A stretch of DNA of 40,412 nucleotides from a virus, in the IMG/VR virus record IMGVR_UViG_3300042887_000795, positions 1 to 40,412 of that record; one strand, written 5' to 3'. A program made the translations under genes and the position numbers. The first letter of the stretch is position 1. The number at the start of each line of letters is the position of its first letter. Below are positions 128 to 40,412 of the stretch, in pieces. Under the pieces are notes generated by a model. It was not told the origin of the DNA, did no database searches, and saw only the letters and a program-made list of their open reading frames with translations.

Positions 128-608
128 CCGGGATGGTCTCGACCTCGGTCTCGTCGAGGAACCCCAGCCCGCAGATGGAGAGCGTCAGTCGGCGCTTGGC
201 CTTCGTCTCGCACTTCATCAGGGCGTTGGCGAGCGCCTCGCCCTTCAGCCCGCCGATCGAGAGGACCGCCGAGGACTCGTCCTCGCGCCCGGTCTTGTCC
301 CGGCCGCGTGCCACGACCTCGAACAGGCCCATCTCGGCGATGTGCCGCCGCTCCAGCGCCAGCACCGACACCGAGTTGATCTTCCGCAACTGCTCGGAGC
401 AGGCGCGGGTCGCGTAGCACACCAACTTCCCGTTCAGCGGGATGAACTCGAAGGGCCGCGTCAGCGGGTTGAGCCCGAGGCTCTCGCACAGGCGGTTGAC
501 GTACGACACGCGCTGCTCGGCGGTCAGCCGCGACAGGTCTCCGCCGACCAGCACCTGCTCGATCGACTGCGCGGCCGACTGGCCGCTGGTTCTCATCAGT
601 TCAGACAT
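1..608 (-). CDS. RecT/Red-beta-like single-strand annealing protein, N-terminal part (gene continues across the contig junction)
   Basis: The gene starts with ATG at 608, runs leftward to base 1 and continues at 40285 down to a stop at 39910, giving 327 residues. The start overlaps the exonuclease stop (ATGTCTGA), implying translational coupling. Residues 20-165 carry the conserved features of a phage family found beside RecE-type exonucleases: a GLNP..RPF.F..LNGKL block near residues 45-62, QLRKI, DESS, GLKGEALANALMKCETKAKRR, then TLSICGLGFLDE. The family is often annotated RecT-like, and the neighbouring exonuclease supports a role in annealing ssDNA during recombination-dependent replication. 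The family assignment is from memory of conserved motifs; annealing activity is inferred. After residue about 175 the protein becomes a Pro/Ser/Ala-rich linker. Confidence 0.75.
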   Translation of the reverse strand, partial: MSELMRTSGQSAAQSIEQVLVGGDLSRLTAEQRVSYVNRLCESLGLNPLTRPFEFIPLNGKLVCYATRACSEQLRKINSVSVLALERRHIAEMGLFEVVARGRDKTGREDESSAVLSIGGLKGEALANALMKCETKAKRRLTLSICGLGFLDETEVETIPGAGKPLPPEPSVPKASGLTALKVAVQSATMREPSTPAPVAAV

Positions 609-1458
609 TGCAGTTCTCCTCTGCTTGGATGCGTGCGAGAGCCCACGACGGGATCCCGATCTCTGTGACGCCCTCGTACCCCTTCGGACCATCCGACAGG
701 TAGGAGCGGTACTTCTCGACAAGCCTCATCATCGTCGGCTCGAATGAAGCAACTACTTCATCCTTGAACCGATACACGGCGACCGCGTGCGGTGCCGCCT
801 TCTCCACCACCACGAACACGAAGTGCTTCGGGTCGAGCCCGCACAGGCGTGCCATGTGCAGGTAGAAAGAGCATTGCAGGCCGTAGCCGAAGTTCCACAC
901 CGACCGCTCGAACTCGTCCTTCGAGGCGCTGCCGCTGGTGGTCTTCACGTCCACGATGATTCCCTCTCCTCCGACCTCGACGTAGCGATCGAACCGTGCC
1001 TTCGCCTTGATGCCAGAGACCTCGGCGAAGAGCGAGAGTTCCGCCTGCCCTTCGAGTTCCCGGCATACCTGCGCTGCATCTGGGTTCGCCATCACGGCGG
1101 CGCTCATCGCCGCAACCTCGTCACCTTGGTCCGAGGTCAGCACGGTCTTGCTTCCCGTGGTCATCAGGAAGTTGTCGTAGATCGCCTTGCCTTCCTTGGT
1201 CCGGCGGTCAACCTTGGGTGCCTCGGCGAAGTCCCGGCCCCACAGGTGTGGTGTCAGGACAAGGCTGTGGAGCGCACGGCCGACGGCGAACGCCGGGCTG
1301 TCGGCTGGGTTGGCGATCTCGTGGGCGAGGTGCAGGCTGGTGGCACGGTCCAGCACCTTCAAACGCGATGCACTCATCGCGTCGTACCCGTGGTAAAGTG
1401 CTTCGGGCAGGCCGCGCTCGATGTGCGGCCACGATTCAGGCTCGAATCTCAAATTCAA
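601..1458 (-). CDS. RecE/exonuclease VIII-like PD-(D/E)XK exonuclease
   Basis: A 285-residue protein of the phage RecE-like (PDDEXK-like) family that would resect dsDNA ends for the annealing protein encoded next. It opens with a family-typical stretch (YHGYDAMSASRLKVLD), has the AVGRALHSLVL helix, and the nuclease core IKAKARFDRY followed by IIVDVKTT; candidate metal ligands are D157 and D170 with K172. The C-terminal QCSFYLHMARL helix matches the family's Q-x3-Y motif. I prefer the TTG at 1458, preceded by AGGAGA eight bases upstream; a GTG at 1503 in the same frame would add 15 residues encoded by a hairpin and has no good ribosome-binding site. It follows the RHH gene and overlaps the annealing gene by 8 bases. 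Confidence 0.85.
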   Translation of the reverse strand: MNLRFEPESWPHIERGLPEALYHGYDAMSASRLKVLDRATSLHLAHEIANPADSPAFAVGRALHSLVLTPHLWGRDFAEAPKVDRRTKEGKAIYDNFLMTTGSKTVLTSDQGDEVAAMSAAVMANPDAAQVCRELEGQAELSLFAEVSGIKAKARFDRYVEVGGEGIIVDVKTTSGSASKDEFERSVWNFGYGLQCSFYLHMARLCGLDPKHFVFVVVEKAAPHAVAVYRFKDEVVASFEPTMMRLVEKYRSYLSDGPKGYEGVTEIGIPSWALARIQAEENCNV

Positions 1459-1506: not shown

Positions 1507-1704
1507 TCATTTCTTCTTGGCGGGTGCGGGCGAAGCGGCTTCGGCCGTCGCCTCCTTCAGTTCATGCTCGTACTGGTCGAGCAGCATGGAGACGAGCGCG
1601 GACTGGGTCCATCGCCCGGCCCGGGCGAAATGCTCGATCCGCTGCTTGACGTGACGGGGAACCGTCAGCGTCGCGTGCCGTCGGGGGGCGGGTTGTGTGT
1701 CCAT
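1507..1704 (-). CDS. Ribbon-helix-helix DNA-binding protein, putative regulator of the phage
   Basis: A 65-residue protein. Residues 10-45 (ATLTVPRHVKQRIEHFA followed by WTQSALVSMLLDQYEHEL) fit an Arc/CopG-type ribbon-helix-helix: a short beta strand with alternating residues, then two helices. The tail is Ala/Lys-rich. ATG at 1704 is chosen because AAAGGAGGT lies six bases upstream; a longer frame reaches into the promoter. The gene is first in the recombination operon. A perfect dyad (1721-1740) sits in its leader, just after a promoter, as expected for RHH autoregulation. The same dyad occurs at three other places, so it may control all the transcription units. The fold is a recognition by pattern; ligand assignment is inferred. 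Confidence 0.75.
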   Translation of the reverse strand: MDTQPAPRRHATLTVPRHVKQRIEHFARAGRWTQSALVSMLLDQYEHELKEATAEAASPAPAKKK

Positions 1705-1720
1705 GAGGCATACCTCCTTT

Positions 1721-1740
1721 CTGTGGTGAATGCACCACAG
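1721..1740. promoter_or_regulatory. Operator dyad 1 (RHH/recombination operon)
   Basis: CTGTGGTGAATGCACCACAG: perfect 8-bp arms around a 4-base centre, immediately downstream of a sigma-70-like promoter and upstream of the RHH start codon. It matches the dyads at 32201 (17/20), 26907 (17/20) and 37679 (15/20). Likely site of autorepression by the RHH protein (inference). Confidence 0.7.
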
Positions 1741-1773
1741 ATACAAGGTACGCACCACTCAGGCGGCTGTCAA
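1741..1773 (-). promoter_or_regulatory. Putative sigma-70 promoter for the recombination operon
   Basis: On the minus strand a perfect TTGACA (1773-1768) is followed after 17 bases by TACCTT (1750-1745), a weak -10. The -35 box contains the TGA stop of the giant gene. The operator dyad starts five bases after the -10, so a bound repressor would cover the start site. Confidence 0.5.
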
Positions 1774-13912: not shown

Positions 13913-14365
13913 TCAGAGTTCCTTGATGTGAGACCTCTCGACCATCCGGTAGCCCATGCGGCCGACCAGAGCGCCGACCGGGGATTCGCCTTGGATGATC
14001 AGGTCGGAGATTGAGACGGCAACCGCGTTCTGCTCGCGTGCCCATTCCTCGAACGCCTTCACCAGCATGATCCCGCCGCGCCCGGCGCGGCTTTCCTCGT
14101 TCACCCACCACAGGAGTTCGGTGGCGATCACGTTCGTCGGCGACATCCAGAACGGCGTGAGGATTCCCGCCAGCATGCCGACGGCCTTGCCGTCCTCGTC
14201 GATGACAAACAGAACCCCGTTCTGGATGATGCCAGCCACCGTCTGAGCCATCTCAGCGACAGATGGATGCACAAATCCCCGGAACTCGGAATAGGCGATG
14301 AACTTCTGCCCCATCTCAATGATGTCGGCAATGTCATCCGGCGTTGCCTTCCTGATGATGCTCAT
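13913..14365 (-). CDS. GNAT-family N-acetyltransferase
   Basis: 150 residues starting MSIIRKATPDDIADI, the usual GNAT opening, with a central strand (VLFVIDEDGKAVGMLAGI), the acetyl-CoA-binding region around SRAGRGGIMLVKAFEEWAR (degenerate Q/R-x-x-G-x-G/A), and a C-terminal GALVGRMGYRMVERSHIKEL resembling the family's GF/GY-x3-E end. ATG 14365 overlaps the nozzle stop (ATGA). Acetyltransferases of this kind often sit between nozzle and ejection genes in short-tailed phages; the substrate is unknown, possibly a virion protein or a host target. Confidence 0.8.
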   Translation of the reverse strand: MSIIRKATPDDIADIIEMGQKFIAYSEFRGFVHPSVAEMAQTVAGIIQNGVLFVIDEDGKAVGMLAGILTPFWMSPTNVIATELLWWVNEESRAGRGGIMLVKAFEEWAREQNAVAVSISDLIIQGESPVGALVGRMGYRMVERSHIKEL

Positions 14366-16497
14366 GTCGGGTCCACCACGCCGCGACGCGGCCCAAGCGG
14401 GTTGGCGTCGATTCCGACGCGCTCCATCGCGAACGGGTAGCCGAGAGATGAGATCCGAAGGAACGCAGCGTTCCCGCGCACCCGGCACCGCAGGCGGTTG
14501 TTCACGCCCTCCTCGATGTCTCCAAGTTCGGTGACGGTCGCCTCGTCGAAACCCTCCTGAGTGACCTCGACGGAACTTGACGTGTCGGTGTCAAGCACGG
14601 TCGCGTCGTCGTCGGTGACAATGTGGTCGTACAGGGCAATCGTCGGATCGGTGATGTTGGTCTGGGAATCGACCGTGCGCTGGAGGTAGACGACCTGCGG
14701 CCCGCCCGTCTCGGGAGGAACCACGAACCGGACCACCCAGCGGAAATTGCTGCTGGCCACCGGATCTTCCCACACACGAGTGATCTCGTACCTGTTGATC
14801 GAATCTCGGTAGACGCGGTCGGCCTCGGCCGTGAACGTCTCCTGCACCGTGTACACGTCGATCACGCTCTTGGCGAACTCGCCGCTGACGTAGTCGGCGA
14901 ACGATGCTCCGTTGGCACCATTGTCAAGAGTGGACGCCCAACTCGTGGTAGATGCGCTCCCGCCGTCATACTCGCGCTCGGTCTCCGAAAGCACCTGCAA
15001 CGTGTTGATCGTCGTGCCGATGGCGATCTGTGCGGTGTCTGCCGTCCTGAGCGTCACGGCCGGAAGATCCGCGTCGCCCTTCACGTTCGTGTTCGGGGTG
15101 TACACGTCTGCCCCGAGTTCGACCTGAACCTCCTTGATCATCACGAGATTCGGCTGCGAATTCAGGATCGGACCCATCGATACGCGGGTCGGGATGCGCT
15201 GCGAGGCGCGGTCGCCGCTCGGCGGGTTCAGGTTCTGGTCGTACCCGGCTGCCGCGTAGCCGTCCATCGCGCAAGTGATCTTCTGGTCGAAGAACCCGAT
15301 CATGCCCTGCTTGCTTCCGTAGACGGCGACTTGGTTGCGCCCGTCCTCGGTAACGAACTGGGCCGCGCTCTTCGCGCCACGGAAGTCAGGATCGACCATC
15401 TTGAACGGGAAGAACCCGTCGGTCTGGTCAGAATAGAACAGGTGCGTGCTGGTGGACGGCAGCAGGTTGTCGTTCATCCAGCACATCAGGCCGCGCCGTT
15501 CGATGTCGTAGAACAGCACCGTCTCCATGTTCTCCCACCGAACTTGGTTGAAGAACGAGTCAAGCCTGTTGAGCGAGATGAGCGACCCACGGTCCACGTT
15601 GAAGTCGTTCGGTGCGATCCGGTAGAGCCCTTCCTGAGCCATCAGGTAGATGGACTTCTCCGGCCCGTTCGACCACGCACGCGGGCCGACGATGCCGATG
15701 TTGCGGCTCATCTGCACGAGTGCGGCACGGTCATCGGTTGCCGGGTCGGAAGTCAGGTATGTCAGCGTCCGCTGCCCGGCAAAGATGATCCCGGTCTGGC
15801 CGAACGGGATCAGCGCCACGATCTCGTCGCCGGGCGAGCCGATCGTCCCGGTGTTTCCGGCGATGGCGTCGCCGATCGTCGTGCTTGGAGTCCAGTCGTC
15901 GGCATTGACCACGTCCGACATGAACCAGATGTTCTCGATGCCCTTGACCCCAGCGAGGACGATGCGGCTGCCGTACAGAACGATCAACGTCGCCTTGTAT
16001 GCCGTGCCGCCGATCGTGTTGGTGACGGTCGCGTTCGGACCTGTCCATGCTTCCCACACGGGGGGCTCGACGGACAAGTCGATCCGCCTGTAGTTGAGGC
16101 CATCGACGAGGTAGATGTACTTTCCCCTCTGCACCGCCTCGACGTTGGCGGTGGTTGACACCGCAGCGCCGCTCCCGCCGCCGGACTGTAGAACCTGAGA
16201 CGAGGTCGTCGCCCCGATGGCAAGCGAGTAGATCTTGCCATCAGCGACGTAGTAGATCCGGTCCTTGACGGTAGGAGGCGTTCCGCTGTAGGCGATGCCG
16301 CGCACGATGCACTGCACCGCATGGGTCGTGTCGAGAATGCGGTTGAAGCCCGGTCGCGTGCCGAGGCGAACGCGCCTGCGGTAGGTGTCCGCAGGGAACA
16401 TGTTGATGATGTCGTGCGTGTAGCCCTCCGGAATCCCCGCATACGCGAAGTCCGTGTGCCAGCCCTTCAGGGGGATGATGGCGGGGGCGTAGGGCAA
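14362..16497 (-). CDS. Tail nozzle/stabilisation protein (P22 gp10/T7 gp12-like), 711 aa
   Basis: The N terminus (PLKGWHTDFAYAGIPEGY followed by INMFPADTYRRRVRLGTRPGF) has the 'G...D.......DA.NMfP...G....R.G' pattern common in podovirus nozzle proteins. The body consists of repeated beta blades (for example YYVADGKIYSL, YIYLVDGLNYRRID, LYGSRIVLAG, RTLTYLTSDP), suggesting a beta-propeller. It would close the tail below the adaptor. It sits directly downstream of a fibre-like gene and overlaps the acetyltransferase gene by 4 bases. Assignment is from fold-like pattern and synteny. Confidence 0.7.
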   Translation of the reverse strand: MPYAPAIIPLKGWHTDFAYAGIPEGYTHDIINMFPADTYRRRVRLGTRPGFNRILDTTHAVQCIVRGIAYSGTPPTVKDRIYYVADGKIYSLAIGATTSSQVLQSGGGSGAAVSTTANVEAVQRGKYIYLVDGLNYRRIDLSVEPPVWEAWTGPNATVTNTIGGTAYKATLIVLYGSRIVLAGVKGIENIWFMSDVVNADDWTPSTTIGDAIAGNTGTIGSPGDEIVALIPFGQTGIIFAGQRTLTYLTSDPATDDRAALVQMSRNIGIVGPRAWSNGPEKSIYLMAQEGLYRIAPNDFNVDRGSLISLNRLDSFFNQVRWENMETVLFYDIERRGLMCWMNDNLLPSTSTHLFYSDQTDGFFPFKMVDPDFRGAKSAAQFVTEDGRNQVAVYGSKQGMIGFFDQKITCAMDGYAAAGYDQNLNPPSGDRASQRIPTRVSMGPILNSQPNLVMIKEVQVELGADVYTPNTNVKGDADLPAVTLRTADTAQIAIGTTINTLQVLSETEREYDGGSASTTSWASTLDNGANGASFADYVSGEFAKSVIDVYTVQETFTAEADRVYRDSINRYEITRVWEDPVASSNFRWVVRFVVPPETGGPQVVYLQRTVDSQTNITDPTIALYDHIVTDDDATVLDTDTSSSVEVTQEGFDEATVTELGDIEEGVNNRLRCRVRGNAAFLRISSLGYPFAMERVGIDANPLGPRRGVVDPT

Positions 16498-24227: not shown

Positions 24228-24253
24228 TGTGTGTGCCTTTCTATTGGGAGATC

Positions 24254-24279
24254 GTGGGGGCGGCCGGGGCCGCCCCCAC
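24254..24279 (-). terminator. Hairpin after major capsid gene
   Basis: GTGGGGGCGGC and GCCGCCCCCAC form an 11-bp all-but-perfect GC stem with a 4-base loop, 8 bases after the capsid stop codon. No U-run follows, so it may be a partial terminator or a 3' stabilising structure that sets the high capsid-to-tail transcript ratio. Confidence 0.5.
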
Positions 24280-24287
24280 GGGGTTCA

Positions 24288-26846: not shown

Positions 26847-28577
26847 CTACTTTCCCCTGTTTCTTCCAAGAACTTGTGCAATCGACTCGGACGGCGACTT
26901 GCCGCCCTGTGGTGCAGACACCACAGGCTGCTGCTGCATCTGCTGCACCTTCTGGTCGTCGATCATGTCGGCGAGGTTTGGGATGTTCATGGCGTCGCCG
27001 ACGATCGACATGACTTCCTTCCACTTGACGTGGGGGCTCGCCACCACCGCCTGCGACAGCGTCCCCACCAGTTGCAGGAGTTCCATCGCCCGCTTCTGCA
27101 TGACGATGTCGGATACCCGCTCCATGCTCATCACGTCGATGTCGATGTCGAGGTCGTCGAACAGCCCGACCATCGCCCGTGGGCTGAAGATCGGCTCCGG
27201 CTCACGCATGATCACCATACCGTCCTCGCCGAGCGGGAACGTCACCTTCTGGTCGTGGAACAGGAACCACGCCACGTTCCTCATCACCTCGTTCACCTGC
27301 TCGCTGAACTGGCGCTTCAGGTGCGCCATCCGCAGGCCGCTGGCGCTCTCGGCGATCGAGATCTCCGTCGCCGTCGCCTGACCCGTCACGTTCCCGCGCA
27401 TGGCGTCGTGGATGCCGCTGACGCGGTCGAGCCTGTCCTGCGCCATCCCCGAGTACTGCACCTGCTGGGCCGTGATCCCGCCAACCTCAAACGGCACCAC
27501 CTGCGTGGGGTCGATGCCGTCGGCAAGCACGACATAGAGGTCGTCCCTGTCACGCAAGTCCTGAGCCAACTTGGAGTTACGGCTGTCAACGGCCACCACG
27601 CGCTTGTATGCGCTCGCCGAGTACCGCATCGAGCGAAGGTGCGCGTTGACATCGTCCATCTGCGGCACGATGCACACGATCGGCGACAGCGGGTACGGGT
27701 CGTCCGGCACCGTGTACGCCCCGAAGACCGTGTACGGACCCGTCCTCGGCCCCCAGTAGGGGCGCGGCGCACGCACGAACCCGACGTTCGCCGCCTCGCC
27801 CTTCGCCTGCCCCTTCAGCATGGTGTAGATCGTGCCGTTGAACATCGAGAGCCCGGTCGCCTCGTCCACCTCCTCCGAGTCCTCGTCCCTCACCTCCGGC
27901 ACGAAGACCTCGTAGACGACCAGTTCCTTGCGGTCGGGGATCTCGCGCTTGCGGCCCTCGTCCGCCCGGACCTCGTCAACGCCCGCGTTCTCGCCGATGG
28001 CGACGATCGCGTCCATGTCCCAGCCCTCCTCGCGCTGGGCCTGCTCGACGAGATCGTCCTTGTCCACCACCCAGCAATGGCCCATGTACCGAACGTCCTC
28101 GACGTTCGACGCCGCCGGGTCCATGAAGAACCTGTCCGGGCTGATGCGGTAGACGCGAGGAAGCCACGGATCCTGACCGTCAGGCGACCTGTAGCCCTTG
28201 CGGGGCTCGTTCACCACCATCGCCACGCCATACCCAAGCAGCATGTCGGTGGCGATCCGCTCCAGCGTGTTGCGGAGTTTGGTCATCTTCGTCCAGCGGT
28301 TCAGGCCGACCTGAAGCACGCCAGCCGTCAACGACTGCGACACCGGACGGGAGGACCGCACCCGGACCTTCGGCGAGTCGTGGATGATCCTCGGCAGGAT
28401 CAGCGACACGTACTCATGCACGAAGTTCTCCGGGTCGTCCTGCCCGTCCGCCGTCCCACGGAACGCAGGCCCGTGGTACCGCTCGATCAGACGCCGCCAC
28501 TCCGTGAGGTGCTGGTCGCGGAAATCCTCCGCAGCCTCCACCTCCCGCATCAACGAACGAAGATCGAGCCGCAGCAT
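26847..28577 (-). CDS. Portal protein, 576 aa
   Basis: Placed between the terminase/basic-protein cluster and the scaffold. The long, mostly helical protein opens with RSLMREVEAAEDFRDQHLTEW, contains SLILPRIIHDSPKVRVRSSRP (like portal wing segments), ISPDRFFMDPAASNVEDVRYMGHCW, and a conserved portal stem/clip region (GIHDAMRGNVTGQATATEIS, residues about 390-420), typical of P22-type portal proteins that use an 'ATE' helix. It ends in a Gln-rich tail. Operator-like dyad 26907-26926 lies within its last codons. Confidence 0.85.
   Translation of the reverse strand: MLRLDLRSLMREVEAAEDFRDQHLTEWRRLIERYHGPAFRGTADGQDDPENFVHEYVSLILPRIIHDSPKVRVRSSRPVSQSLTAGVLQVGLNRWTKMTKLRNTLERIATDMLLGYGVAMVVNEPRKGYRSPDGQDPWLPRVYRISPDRFFMDPAASNVEDVRYMGHCWVVDKDDLVEQAQREEGWDMDAIVAIGENAGVDEVRADEGRKREIPDRKELVVYEVFVPEVRDEDSEEVDEATGLSMFNGTIYTMLKGQAKGEAANVGFVRAPRPYWGPRTGPYTVFGAYTVPDDPYPLSPIVCIVPQMDDVNAHLRSMRYSASAYKRVVAVDSRNSKLAQDLRDRDDLYVVLADGIDPTQVVPFEVGGITAQQVQYSGMAQDRLDRVSGIHDAMRGNVTGQATATEISIAESASGLRMAHLKRQFSEQVNEVMRNVAWFLFHDQKVTFPLGEDGMVIMREPEPIFSPRAMVGLFDDLDIDIDVMSMERVSDIVMQKRAMELLQLVGTLSQAVVASPHVKWKEVMSIVGDAMNIPNLADMIDDQKVQQMQQQPVVSAPQGGKSPSESIAQVLGRNRGK
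26907..26926. promoter_or_regulatory. Operator-like dyad 4, inside the portal gene
   Basis: CTGTGGTGCAGACACCACAG; extended by one base each side the arms are 9 bp. It matches dyad 1 in 17 of 20 positions, differing only in the centre. It encodes the tail of the portal protein (QQQPVVSAPQ). I see no clear promoter boxes next to it, so it may act as a roadblock or silence capsid-gene expression early. Confidence 0.5.
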
Positions 28578-32162: not shown

Positions 32163-32191
32163 TTGCACGGTGGCGCATCCCGATCTATGCT
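32163..32191 (+). promoter_or_regulatory. Putative sigma-70 promoter of the plus-strand operon
   Basis: TTGCAC (32163-32168) and TATGCT (32186-32191) are separated by 17 bases, within a locally AT-richer stretch. The predicted start site is within the tandem TTGTGGTG half-sites of operator 2. Confidence 0.5.
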
Positions 32192-32220
32192 TGTGGTGCA
32201 TTGTGGTGAAGGAACCACAG
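32191..32220. promoter_or_regulatory. Operator 2 (plus-strand operon) with an extra half-site
   Basis: TTGTGGTGAAGGAACCACAG at 32201-32220 matches dyad 1 in 17 of 20 positions. Just upstream TTGTGGTGCA (32191-32200) repeats the left half-site in tandem at a 10-bp step, a pattern RHH proteins use for cooperative binding. Lies directly after the promoter and between divergent operons. Confidence 0.65.
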
Positions 32221-32248: not shown

Positions 32249-32641
32249 ATGACGATCACCGCTGCCCACCTCGCCCCGCCCGCCACCGTCGAGACCGCCA
32301 AGGTCCGCTACCGTCTCGCGACCCACATCAGGTGCCGAATCAGCCGCTGCGTGAGCCTGAACGCCCGCGACAACTTCGCGGCGATCGACTACGCGCAGGC
32401 CGAGTTCCGGGGCGCGATCGACCTCGCATTCGAGATCGGCGCGATCGACTGGCACACCCGCGTCGAGTTGATCGGCATCAACGACCGGATGGCGCGTCTG
32501 CACGGCGCGATCGTCAAGTGGCACCGCCGCAAGGTCGCCGAGCGCGGCGTTCGCCCCGATGCCAGCATGGTCTCCGCCGATGCGCTGGTGGGAGCCAAGC
32601 GCCTTGCCCGCCAACTCGACCCCACCACCACCACCGCCTGA
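32249..32641 (+). CDS. Unknown early protein, 130 aa
   Basis: First gene of the plus-strand operon, 28 bases after operator 2. It is helical and basic (TAKVRYRLATHIRCRISRCV, then LAFEIGAIDWHTRVELIGIN, then KWHRRKVAERG). No motif or family is recognised. GAGGACACGACC precedes the ATG. Position suggests expression right after infection. Confidence 0.65.
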   Translation: MTITAAHLAPPATVETAKVRYRLATHIRCRISRCVSLNARDNFAAIDYAQAEFRGAIDLAFEIGAIDWHTRVELIGINDRMARLHGAIVKWHRRKVAERGVRPDASMVSADALVGAKRLARQLDPTTTTA

Positions 32642-32672
32642 CACCACACGCACCACACACGAGGACACGACC

Positions 32673-32818: not shown

Positions 32819-32868
32819 CTGGCGCTCGTCACCGTGACGCGCACCACACCCTGACCGAGGAGACACCC

Positions 32869-33336: not shown

Positions 33337-33371
33337 CACCACGCACCACACACCACGAGGAGACACACACC

Positions 33372-34483: not shown

Positions 34484-34510
34484 CACCACACCACACGAGG
34501 AGACCCAGCC

Positions 34511-34699
34511 ATGAAGACCGACACGCACCCCACCTGCGCCCTGTGCCTGCAACGCCTCGAACGCCGCCGGGACGGGCTCGACGCCCGCGCCATCGGCGTG
34601 TGCCAGCCCTGCTACGACGGCACCAGCGACACCGCCCGCAGGCTGCACACCGAGTCCGCCGTCCGCACCATCCGCAAGGCGCGAAGCGTTCGCGCCTGA
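34511..34699 (+). CDS. Mini zinc-ribbon-like protein, 62 aa
   Basis: Two Cys pairs, CALC (residues 9-12) and CQPC (about 31-34), could bind one zinc ion; the remainder is basic (RRLHTESAVRTIRKARSVRA). GAGGAGACCCAGCC precedes the ATG. Possibly a nucleic-acid- or RNA-polymerase-binding early factor; function unknown. Confidence 0.6.
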   Translation: MKTDTHPTCALCLQRLERRRDGLDARAIGVCQPCYDGTSDTARRLHTESAVRTIRKARSVRA

Positions 34700-34724
34700 C
34701 ACACCACACGAGAGGAGACACACC

Positions 34725-34955: not shown

Positions 34956-34979
34956 CACCACACCACGAGGAGACACACC

Positions 34980-37678: not shown

Positions 37679-37698
37679 GTGTGGTGATTGTACCACCT
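37679..37698. promoter_or_regulatory. Operator-like dyad 3 (RusA operon)
   Basis: GTGTGGTGATTGTACCACCT matches dyad 1 in 15 of 20 positions. On the minus strand a -10-like TACAAT (37692-37687) lies within it, so a bound protein would block the promoter directly. It sits between the intrinsic terminator (37701-37731) and the first gene of this operon. Confidence 0.5.
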
Positions 37699-37700
37699 CG

Positions 37701-37731
37701 AAAAAGAAATCGCCCCGCCTTGCGACGGGGC
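37701..37731 (-). terminator. Intrinsic terminator ending the upstream minus-strand transcript
   Basis: On the minus strand GCCCCG-TCGCAAGG-CGGGGC (37731-37712) is followed by GATTTCTTTTT, a classical stem plus U-rich tail. It closes transcription from the recombination operon or the small RNA candidate just before the RusA operon. Confidence 0.75.
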
Positions 37732-37782
37732 TTGCGTTTGCACTCGGCTGGCGGCTAGAGTGCTGGTTCCTCAACCAAACGC
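37701..37782 (-). ncRNA. Candidate structured small RNA with three-way junction and terminator
   Basis: On the minus strand, bases 37782-37734 fold as GCGTTT/AAACGC closing a junction with two hairpins: GGTT-GAGG-AACC, and GCACTC-12 nt-GAGTGC. The intrinsic terminator hairpin and its U-tract (37731-37701) follow without a break. A -10-like TATGAT at 37794-37789 would put the transcript start at about 37782, exactly at the first base of the junction; no good -35 is visible. No family recognised. A DNA cruciform (origin or recombination site) is the main alternative. Confidence 0.45.
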
Positions 37783-38061
37783 GCTCGCATCATAGCGCAC
37801 GAGCCTCGCGGGGCGATGATGCCGCAGACGATCCCGGCGCGGTAGGGGATCAGGGTGATAGACGCAGGTGCTGACCCTACCCTGCGCCAGTCCTTCGGAC
37901 TGCGCTCCTCGACGATGGCAGCGGCTGGTTGACCCCCAGCGAAATGGTGAGAATCGTCGCAACGGGAAACCTCGCATGGCTCCGGCCGGGCTGAGAATCC
38001 TGAGACCTCGGATGCCCGGGGTCTCGGTGTTCCTGCACCCACCAGCCGAACTGGAAGCGAG
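37733..38061. other. Non-coding region, 330 bases
   Basis: The only long gap without a credible gene in an otherwise tightly overlapping genome. It contains the three-way-junction RNA candidate (37734-37782) and further hairpins: CAGTCC-TTC-GGACTG (near 37890), CGCAGG with CCTGCG (about 37865-37888), and GAGACCTCGG-ATGC-CCGGGGTCTC (38002-38025, 10 bp with one G-U pair). Open frames here have no ribosome-binding site or composition bias that I trust. Confidence 0.6.
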
Positions 38062-39253: not shown

Positions 39254-39603
39254 GCCAGCACCTCCTGCACGGGGTCGGAGACGAGCCAGTCGCACAGCGC
39301 CTTCGAGATGGTGGCTGGCTGCGTCCACGCATCGTCGCGCTCGCACACGATCGAGAACCTCGCCTTGCGCTTGCCTCGCACGACCTCGATGAAAACCACC
39401 TTGCGCTCGCCGTCCGGCAAATCTTCGAGCGCAGGCTGCACCTGTCTCGCGTGGACCATGCCGATGTCGAACGCGGCGATCACGAGTTCCGCCTCCAGCA
39501 GCGCCGACTCGTGCGTCGCCTTGAAGGCGATCACGACGCTCGTCAACTTCTTCCCGTCGCGCCAATGCTGGAAGTCGATCGACCACTTGGGCCTGCGTCT
39601 CAT
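39250..39603 (-). CDS. Unknown protein, 117 aa
   Basis: Beta/alpha mix starting MRRRPKWSIDFQHWRDGKKL, with AFDIGMVHARQVQPALEDLP and GERKVVFIEVVRGKRKARFS, then a C-terminal helix region (PATISKALCDWLVSDPVQEV). ATG 39603 overlaps the upstream stop (ATGA) with GGGAGG upstream. No family recognised. Confidence 0.6.
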   Translation of the reverse strand: MRRRPKWSIDFQHWRDGKKLTSVVIAFKATHESALLEAELVIAAFDIGMVHARQVQPALEDLPDGERKVVFIEVVRGKRKARFSIVCERDDAWTQPATISKALCDWLVSDPVQEVLA

Positions 39604-39929
39604 TCCGTGCCTCCCATCGGGAACAGGGTCATCGCCGTCGCCGGGACGCACACGATCCGGGGACGCCCGGCCGTGCCCTTTCGGACACGGCCGGAGTCCA
39701 CGATCAGCCCGAGCGAGCGGAGTTCGCTGCAACGCTTCCACCAGCAGCCGCCGACCCCGGCGACCGCAGCGGCCTCCTCGTCGGTGAGCCCGTCCGGGTG
39801 CTGCTCGAACGCACGGAGGATGGTCTCCCGCTGGGTGACCGCCGCCTCGCGGATGCTTCGATCCGCGTAACTGCTGGTCCACGGGTCGGTGACACGGACG
39901 CACGCGATGTCAGAACGGGATTTCGTCAT
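39600..39929 (-). CDS. Winged-helix DNA-binding protein, 109 aa
   Basis: Residues 30-95 (QRETILRAFEQHPDGLTDEE, then AVAGVGGCWWKRCSELRSLG, LIVDSGRVRKGTAGRPRIVC) form a winged-helix domain of the type often found in phages and mobile elements ('R...L..l....glTd.E.a...g......R..eL...GlI...G..R.t..GR...vw'). ATG 39929 overlaps the annealing gene's end by 20 bases; AAGGAC upstream. May regulate or recruit to phage DNA. Confidence 0.7.
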   Translation of the reverse strand: MTKSRSDIACVRVTDPWTSSYADRSIREAAVTQRETILRAFEQHPDGLTDEEAAAVAGVGGCWWKRCSELRSLGLIVDSGRVRKGTAGRPRIVCVPATAMTLFPMGGTE

Positions 39930-40285: not shown

Positions 40286-40412
40286 GCCACGGCAGCAACC
40301 GGGGCCGGAGTGGATGGCTCGCGCATGGTAGCAGACTGGACCGCCACCTTGAGGGCCGTGAGCCCGGACGCCTTCGGCACCGACGGCTCCGGCGGCAGCG
40401 GCTTGCCCGCTC
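40286..40412. repeat. Terminal direct repeat, right copy (circular closure)
   Basis: Identical to 1-127. See the left copy. Genes should be counted once only: the frame of the annealing protein runs through this copy. Confidence 0.95.

Follow-up and report, generated by a model that had tools for sequence, protein, structure and literature searches.

The window, meaning the whole stretch of DNA analysed (40,412 bases), carries a 127-base direct terminal repeat (1-127 and 40286-40412) of the kind typical of the assembly overlap of a circular genome, and it therefore very probably represents a complete circular map. A portal of the SU10 type (PF23899), a terminase, a 3018-aa protein, a RecE-like exonuclease and RusA are encoded in it. 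No match among named phages was obtained for the capsid, the portal or the RHH protein, no relative of the RHH protein was returned by the genome_contigs search, and no lysogeny genes were recognised among the window proteins examined; the virus family is previously undescribed. The late genes are located on the minus strand, the series extending from the small terminase gene down to 1770. The recombination operon, also on the minus strand, starts with the RHH gene (1704) and continues across the circle junction, and the plus strand carries the early operon, which starts at 32249. The terms "early" and "late" are presumptive and were derived from gene content. The main features are as follows.

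601-1458, minus strand: RecE/exonuclease VIII-like gene, directly downstream of the RHH gene (PHROG 412, E 3.5e-63)
1507-1704, minus strand: gene of the RHH (CopG-like) regulator, 65 aa (PDB, Pfam and PHROG matches with shuffles)
1721-1740, no strand: dyad 1, CTGTGGTG-AATG-CACCACAG, perfect 8-bp arms (9 bp with flanks)
26847-28577, minus strand: portal gene
26907-26926, no strand: dyad 2, CTGTGGTG-CAGA-CACCACAG, perfect arms, in the 3' end of the portal gene
32191-32220, no strand: dyad 3 with an in-phase extra half-site, TTGTGGTGCA then TTGTGGTGAAGGAACCACAG
32249-32641, plus strand: first gene of the plus-strand operon, function not recognised
37679-37698, no strand: dyad 4 (weak), GTGTGGTGATTGTACCACCT, holding a minus-strand TACAAT

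Recurrence and symmetry of the four dyads

A 20-bp dyad recurring at four places had been reported in the first-pass annotation, and all coordinates and match counts were found to be correct: the word at 1721 was matched at 20/20 positions by itself, at 17/20 at both 26907 and 32201, and at 15/20 at 37679, while 0.01 occurrences with three or fewer mismatches were expected from 100 dinucleotide shuffles. The window contains precisely four copies of the core GTGGT-N6-ACCAC (1723, 26909, 32203 and 37681), while 300 shuffles gave 0.027 copies on average and never more than 1, which disposes of the objection that the dyad might be equally common in shuffled sequence. Over spacings of 0-20 bp the inverted pair occurred only at 6 bp (n=4) and 16 bp (n=1), the latter being the extra in-phase half-site at the early promoter; the 6-bp spacing corresponds to a 10 bp repeat, with half-sites about one helical turn apart. 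The longest word common to the RHH upstream and early/late intergenic regions was 11 bp (TGTGGTGCATT, other strand), and this extent of sharing with the RHH upstream region was reached by 0 of 550 other windows.

The four copies were of unequal quality. Dyads 1 and 2, with identical perfect 8-bp arms, were the matching pair among the perfect 9-bp-arm inverted repeats of the genome and ranked first in an unbiased repeated-dyad search. In dyad 3 the arms differ at two positions, and a further half-site lies 10 bp away. Dyad 4 had four arm changes and kept only the exact 5-bp core; its arm score of 12/16 was close to the best background value of 11, so the case for it rests on the exact core and the location, and it is counted as a probable real copy.

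Several other repeated sequences were recorded in the window. Most genes of the plus-strand operon are preceded by a repeated leader, roughly (TGA)CACCACAC..CACGAGGAGACACACC-ATG, which is alike in kind to the start-associated sequences of Cluster K mycobacteriophages (PMC3203893). Its copies are located at

32642-32672, plus-strand operon: repeated leader
32842-32868, plus-strand operon: repeated leader
33337-33371, plus-strand operon: repeated leader
34484-34512, plus-strand operon: repeated leader
34702-34724, plus-strand operon: repeated leader
34956-34979, plus-strand operon: repeated leader

and the 7-fold over-representation of CACCACA in the window (16 against 2.2 expected) is largely due to this leader, not to the dyad. 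The strongest inverted repeat of the genome, CGTGGGGGCGGCC-GG-GGCCGCCCCCACG (24253-24280, 13-bp perfect arms, 2-bp centre), lies just downstream of the major capsid gene and is probably a terminator or mRNA hairpin. Amid the minus-strand genes, about 300 bp (37755-38061) hold no convincing gene and gave no Rfam match, with a terminator (37712-37731) at the end of the gap. A GNAT-type acetyltransferase is encoded within the structural operon at 13913-14488 (PHROG 1249, E 1.4e-22).

Putative promoters beside the dyads and the adjacent RHH gene

For three of the four copies a gene start follows within about 50 bp, and two of these copies are directly at the boxes of putative promoters.

1740-1773, minus strand: putative RHH promoter TTGACA-17-TACCTT, ending just upstream of dyad 1 (best-scoring hexamer pair)
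32163-32191, plus strand: putative early promoter of the plus-strand operon, TTGCAC-17-TATGCT (from sequence; unchanged in the close relative G001)

On the minus strand, dyad 1 was found in the arrangement TTGACA-17-TACCTT-GTAT-CTGTGGTGCATTCACCACAG-AAAGGAGG, with the start codon 10 bases further; the dyad itself is placed immediately before the RHH ribosome-binding site and 16 bp from the start codon, which bears out the earlier remark that an RHH gene lies directly downstream of the first site. The promoter spacer holds an extra half-site, GTGGTG, two turns (20 bp) away from that of the dyad. Dyad 3 reads TTGCAC-17-TATGCT-TGTGGTGCAT-TGTGGTGAAGGAACCACAG, and at both promoters the site starts 0-4 bp past the presumed -10 box. 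Dyad 4 occupies the roughly 50 bp between the intrinsic terminator and the start of the 37373-37657/RusA genes; no sigma-70 promoter was recognisable for the RusA operon, the only -10-like word being the TACAAT within dyad 4. Dyad 2 falls within the final 80 bases of the portal gene, with no recognisable promoter beside it. Accordingly, of the three sites that had been assigned to putative promoters, those of the RHH/recombination and plus-strand operons are supported by good -35 and -10 boxes, and that of the RusA operon, with its lone TACAAT, is plausible. The statement that the dyad marks all transcription units was overstated, the copy at 26907 being inside the portal coding sequence.

The copy inside the portal gene, away from promoters, would suit a role of the dyads in replication, packaging or partition instead of transcription. 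MatP, for example, is an RHH protein that binds palindromes on the chromosome, and it was a weak PDB match of the RHH protein of the relative G011. The positions upstream of gene starts and at promoter boxes argue against this role, as does the finding that the dyads of another relative, G017, were all at promoters, and we regard it as very improbable.

The positions past the -10 boxes are also compatible with 5'-terminal mRNA hairpins, in which the dyads would be transcribed at the 5' end and the stem-loop would protect the message or tune translation with no DNA-binding protein involved. This is the main rival to the operator reading. The folding energies were -16.8 kcal/mol for the dyad-1 leader (z -3.9) and -18.5 kcal/mol for the dyad-3 leader (z -1.9), and in RNA the outer T-G of dyad 3 might pair by wobble. 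However, plain hairpins need no common sequence, whereas both 8-bp arms are exactly the same in dyads 1 and 2 and almost the same in dyad 3; dyad 4, holding a -10-like word, would fall outside the transcript, and the in-phase half-sites are left unexplained.

The protein encoded next to dyad 1 was compared with three libraries. The only PDB match was CopG (ungapped, residues 9-47, E 0.22, phmmer), the best Pfam match was RHH_5 (E 0.14) and the best PHROG match was a CopG-like repressor (E 0.07); one named class was thus returned by all three, each match being below curated cut-offs. An ungapped alignment to CopG as good as the observed one was obtained in 0 of 2000 shuffles of the RHH protein, a count that is not a corrected probability as CopG had been chosen as the PDB match. 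From this alignment, the DNA-reading strand is RHATLTV with contact positions H10, T12 and T14, opposite R4, T6 and T8, the DNA-contact positions of CopG. The AlphaFold monomer showed an extended N-terminus followed by two helices (pLDDT 66.8), and no fold match was given by Foldseek with this low-confidence monomer model; the RHH fold forms only as a dimer. With caution, the 65-aa product appears by its sequence to have an RHH domain, and the earlier assignment was upheld by these individually weak top matches.

The dyads in related phages

In G001, whose terminase is 96% identical to that of the window, the early promoter was the same base for base, and dyad 3 was a perfect GTGGTG-GAGT-CACCAC (GTGGTG-N4-CACCAC). 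The few changes near the promoter were in the dyad spacer and edge and made the arms symmetric. The 32249-32641 gene was swapped for an unrelated gene precisely downstream of the kept promoter, operator and leader, which argues against the first early gene encoding the binder. Dyad 2 was retained in G013, which says little because the entire segment is nearly identical. A further 99 viral stretches with TGTGGTG-N4-CACCACA were set aside because, as we estimate, chance would give about as many; the informative ones were G013, G001 and near-identical records only.

More distant relatives were sought with the exonuclease, which gave three loci only, and with a RecT-like protein, which gave 67, the useful ones being G017, G018 and G019. 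In lineages at about 70% portal or about 50% exonuclease identity the RHH position is occupied by a small gene; that of G011 and G003 encodes MSTSKRYTALMILT..., and that of G017 encodes a relative of the G011 protein at 32-35% identity. The GTGGTG dyad was absent from the promoters of the G011, G003 and G017 lineages. In G017, a dyad unrelated to that of the window, GTACGATACA-N3-TGTATCGTAC, was common to the RHH-position and early promoters.

G017, 9964: copy at the promoter of the RHH-position gene, 3/20 mismatches, N4 spacing
G017, 18859: copy at an early promoter, 1 of 20 mismatches
G017, 20795: copy at an early promoter, 2 of 20 mismatches

The next-best places in the G017 contig had 6-7 mismatches, the same as in shuffles. 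The site overlapped the spacer or -10 box in all four promoters examined, and the GTACGATACA/TGTATCGTAC dyad was also paired in G018, G019 and two further fragments. Since the shared G017 dyad, in the spacer and -10 box, would be upstream of any transcript, it argues against mRNA hairpins.

When 18 window proteins from the recombination, RusA and early regions were compared with G017, only the exonuclease, an SSB-like protein and RusA were recognisable besides the RHH-position gene, and therefore no other shared candidate binder was seen. This comparison bears on a different assignment, in which the dyads would be operators of a host regulator or of another phage protein, for example the winged-helix-like product of 39600-39929. 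Adjacency of the RHH gene is no proof of binding, and the 39600-39929 product may, judged by eye, be a small DNA-binding protein; but no counterpart of it could be recognised in G017 or G011, whereas the gene in the RHH position is still present and has a promoter dyad of its own. Unless the hosts differ, a host factor does not account for the complete turnover of the operator between sister lineages that retain the layout. We consider such a binder improbable. The G017 protein is linked to RHH only via that of G011, which was itself weak against CopG (132/2000 shuffles); no library match for RHH was obtained with the G017 protein, and its AlphaFold model was one long helix of low confidence without the RHH shape.

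For G011 and G003, a search for a dyad common to the RHH and early promoters had a negative outcome; in G011, 107 of 442 windows shared an equally long word with the RHH upstream region. The suggested refutation, that relatives keep the RHH gene and lack the sites, is literally true of these two genomes; it was not counted as such because the divergence of the RHH protein and of its DNA-reading strand is too great there, the contact positions being H, T and T in the window and Y, A and M in G011. The proposed search for the same sites in related phages gave an uneven result: the early site was kept in G001 and the same layout was present in G017 with another dyad, while none was shared in G011 and G003. 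In all, the same operator was seen at several promoters in two of the three lineages (window/G001 and G017; not G011/G003).

In G011 (stretch L119, 15889-15906), GTCGGCA-N3-TGCCGAC was found right after the putative early -10 box; it was also present in G002 and G006, and its symmetry was kept in 3/4 relatives with a varying centre. A symmetry kept at this position speaks for mRNA hairpins; weighed with the points above, they are nevertheless an unlikely explanation of the window dyads. Another candidate for a conserved operator, CGTGGTGGAAGCACCACG (G002, G004, G006 and G011), was rejected since it is inside the small-terminase coding sequence.

A candidate autorepressor and known systems

The dyads are probably operators of the 1507-1704 RHH protein, which would repress its own recombination operon and the early genes. 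Two RHH dimers could sit side by side on the half-sites TGTGGTG, about one helical turn apart, and a protein so placed on dyads 1 and 3 would block RNA polymerase at the transcription start. The recombination operon would be repressed by its own first product, and the early genes would be switched off once the protein accumulates; further dimers could be held by the in-phase extra half-sites (at 10 bp in the early promoter and 20 bp in the RHH promoter). Judged from sequence, the window and G017 lineages share one wiring scheme built on unrelated operators, and operator and DNA-reading strand would have diverged together between lineages. Of the compact one-protein switch first proposed, the RHH/recombination and early promoters are supported, with G017 as an independent parallel, and the extension to all units does not. 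The suggested control of late genes was not supported, all that bears on it being a single site within a gene and a single divergent region that is shared.

The RHH protein probably binds the portal-gene site as well. We can only speculate that the protein, bound at the portal 3' site, blocks or attenuates the elongating polymerase and so sets the ratio of packaging to capsid genes, with a specificity replaced wholesale between sister lineages. An intragenic copy of this kind would be unusual if functional, and such a roadblock, if true, would amount to an RHH repressor used in the manner of a stoperator. The arrangement provides a compact, testable regulatory map for a phage lineage for which no cultured relative was found, and it may offer a natural case in which a repressor and its DNA word change together while the wiring stays.

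This type of switch is already familiar from Arc/Mnt, CopG and SvtR-like regulation. Autoregulation via a dyad with half-sites about one turn apart is typical of the RHH fold, as in CopG and in Arc/Mnt of phage P22, and dyad 1, at the RHH gene's own promoter, has this form. CopG (1b01), a plasmid copy-number repressor, was the sole PDB sequence match, ungapped over the RHH core; unlike CopG and Arc/Mnt, the system described here has the half-site TGTGGTG and several operators spread over a phage genome. It also differs from E. coli RelB/relO, in which RelB belongs to a toxin-antitoxin pair with a co-repressor, whereas the neighbour of the window RHH gene is an exonuclease and not a toxin.

Repeated sites in other phages were also compared. 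Cluster O mycobacteriophages have a 17-bp dyad, TGTTCGG-N3-CCGAACA, at intergenic and coding places (PMC4351075), which resembles the present one as a short repeated palindrome with fixed arms and a variable centre. It occurs in more than 30 copies, mostly off promoters, and a transcriptional role is doubted by its authors (PMC4351075), whereas the window has four copies with two to three at promoters. The stoperators of Cluster A mycobacteriophages are repressor sites at promoters and across the genome (PMC9283540), and the window sites are likewise at promoters and elsewhere. Stoperators, however, are asymmetric, numerous, oriented with transcription, and used by another kind of repressor in lysogeny, and the window has four symmetric sites. 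The likeness to SvtR of SIRV1 was in regulation, with archaeal promoters (TATA/BRE) and another binding sequence on the SvtR side: SvtR, a small RHH protein of an archaeal virus, acts as repressor of its own promoter and binds a few further sites, of which the strongest is at a structural gene (PMC5569661), and the window similarly combines a small viral RHH protein, a site at its own promoter and a further site in a structural gene, that of the portal.
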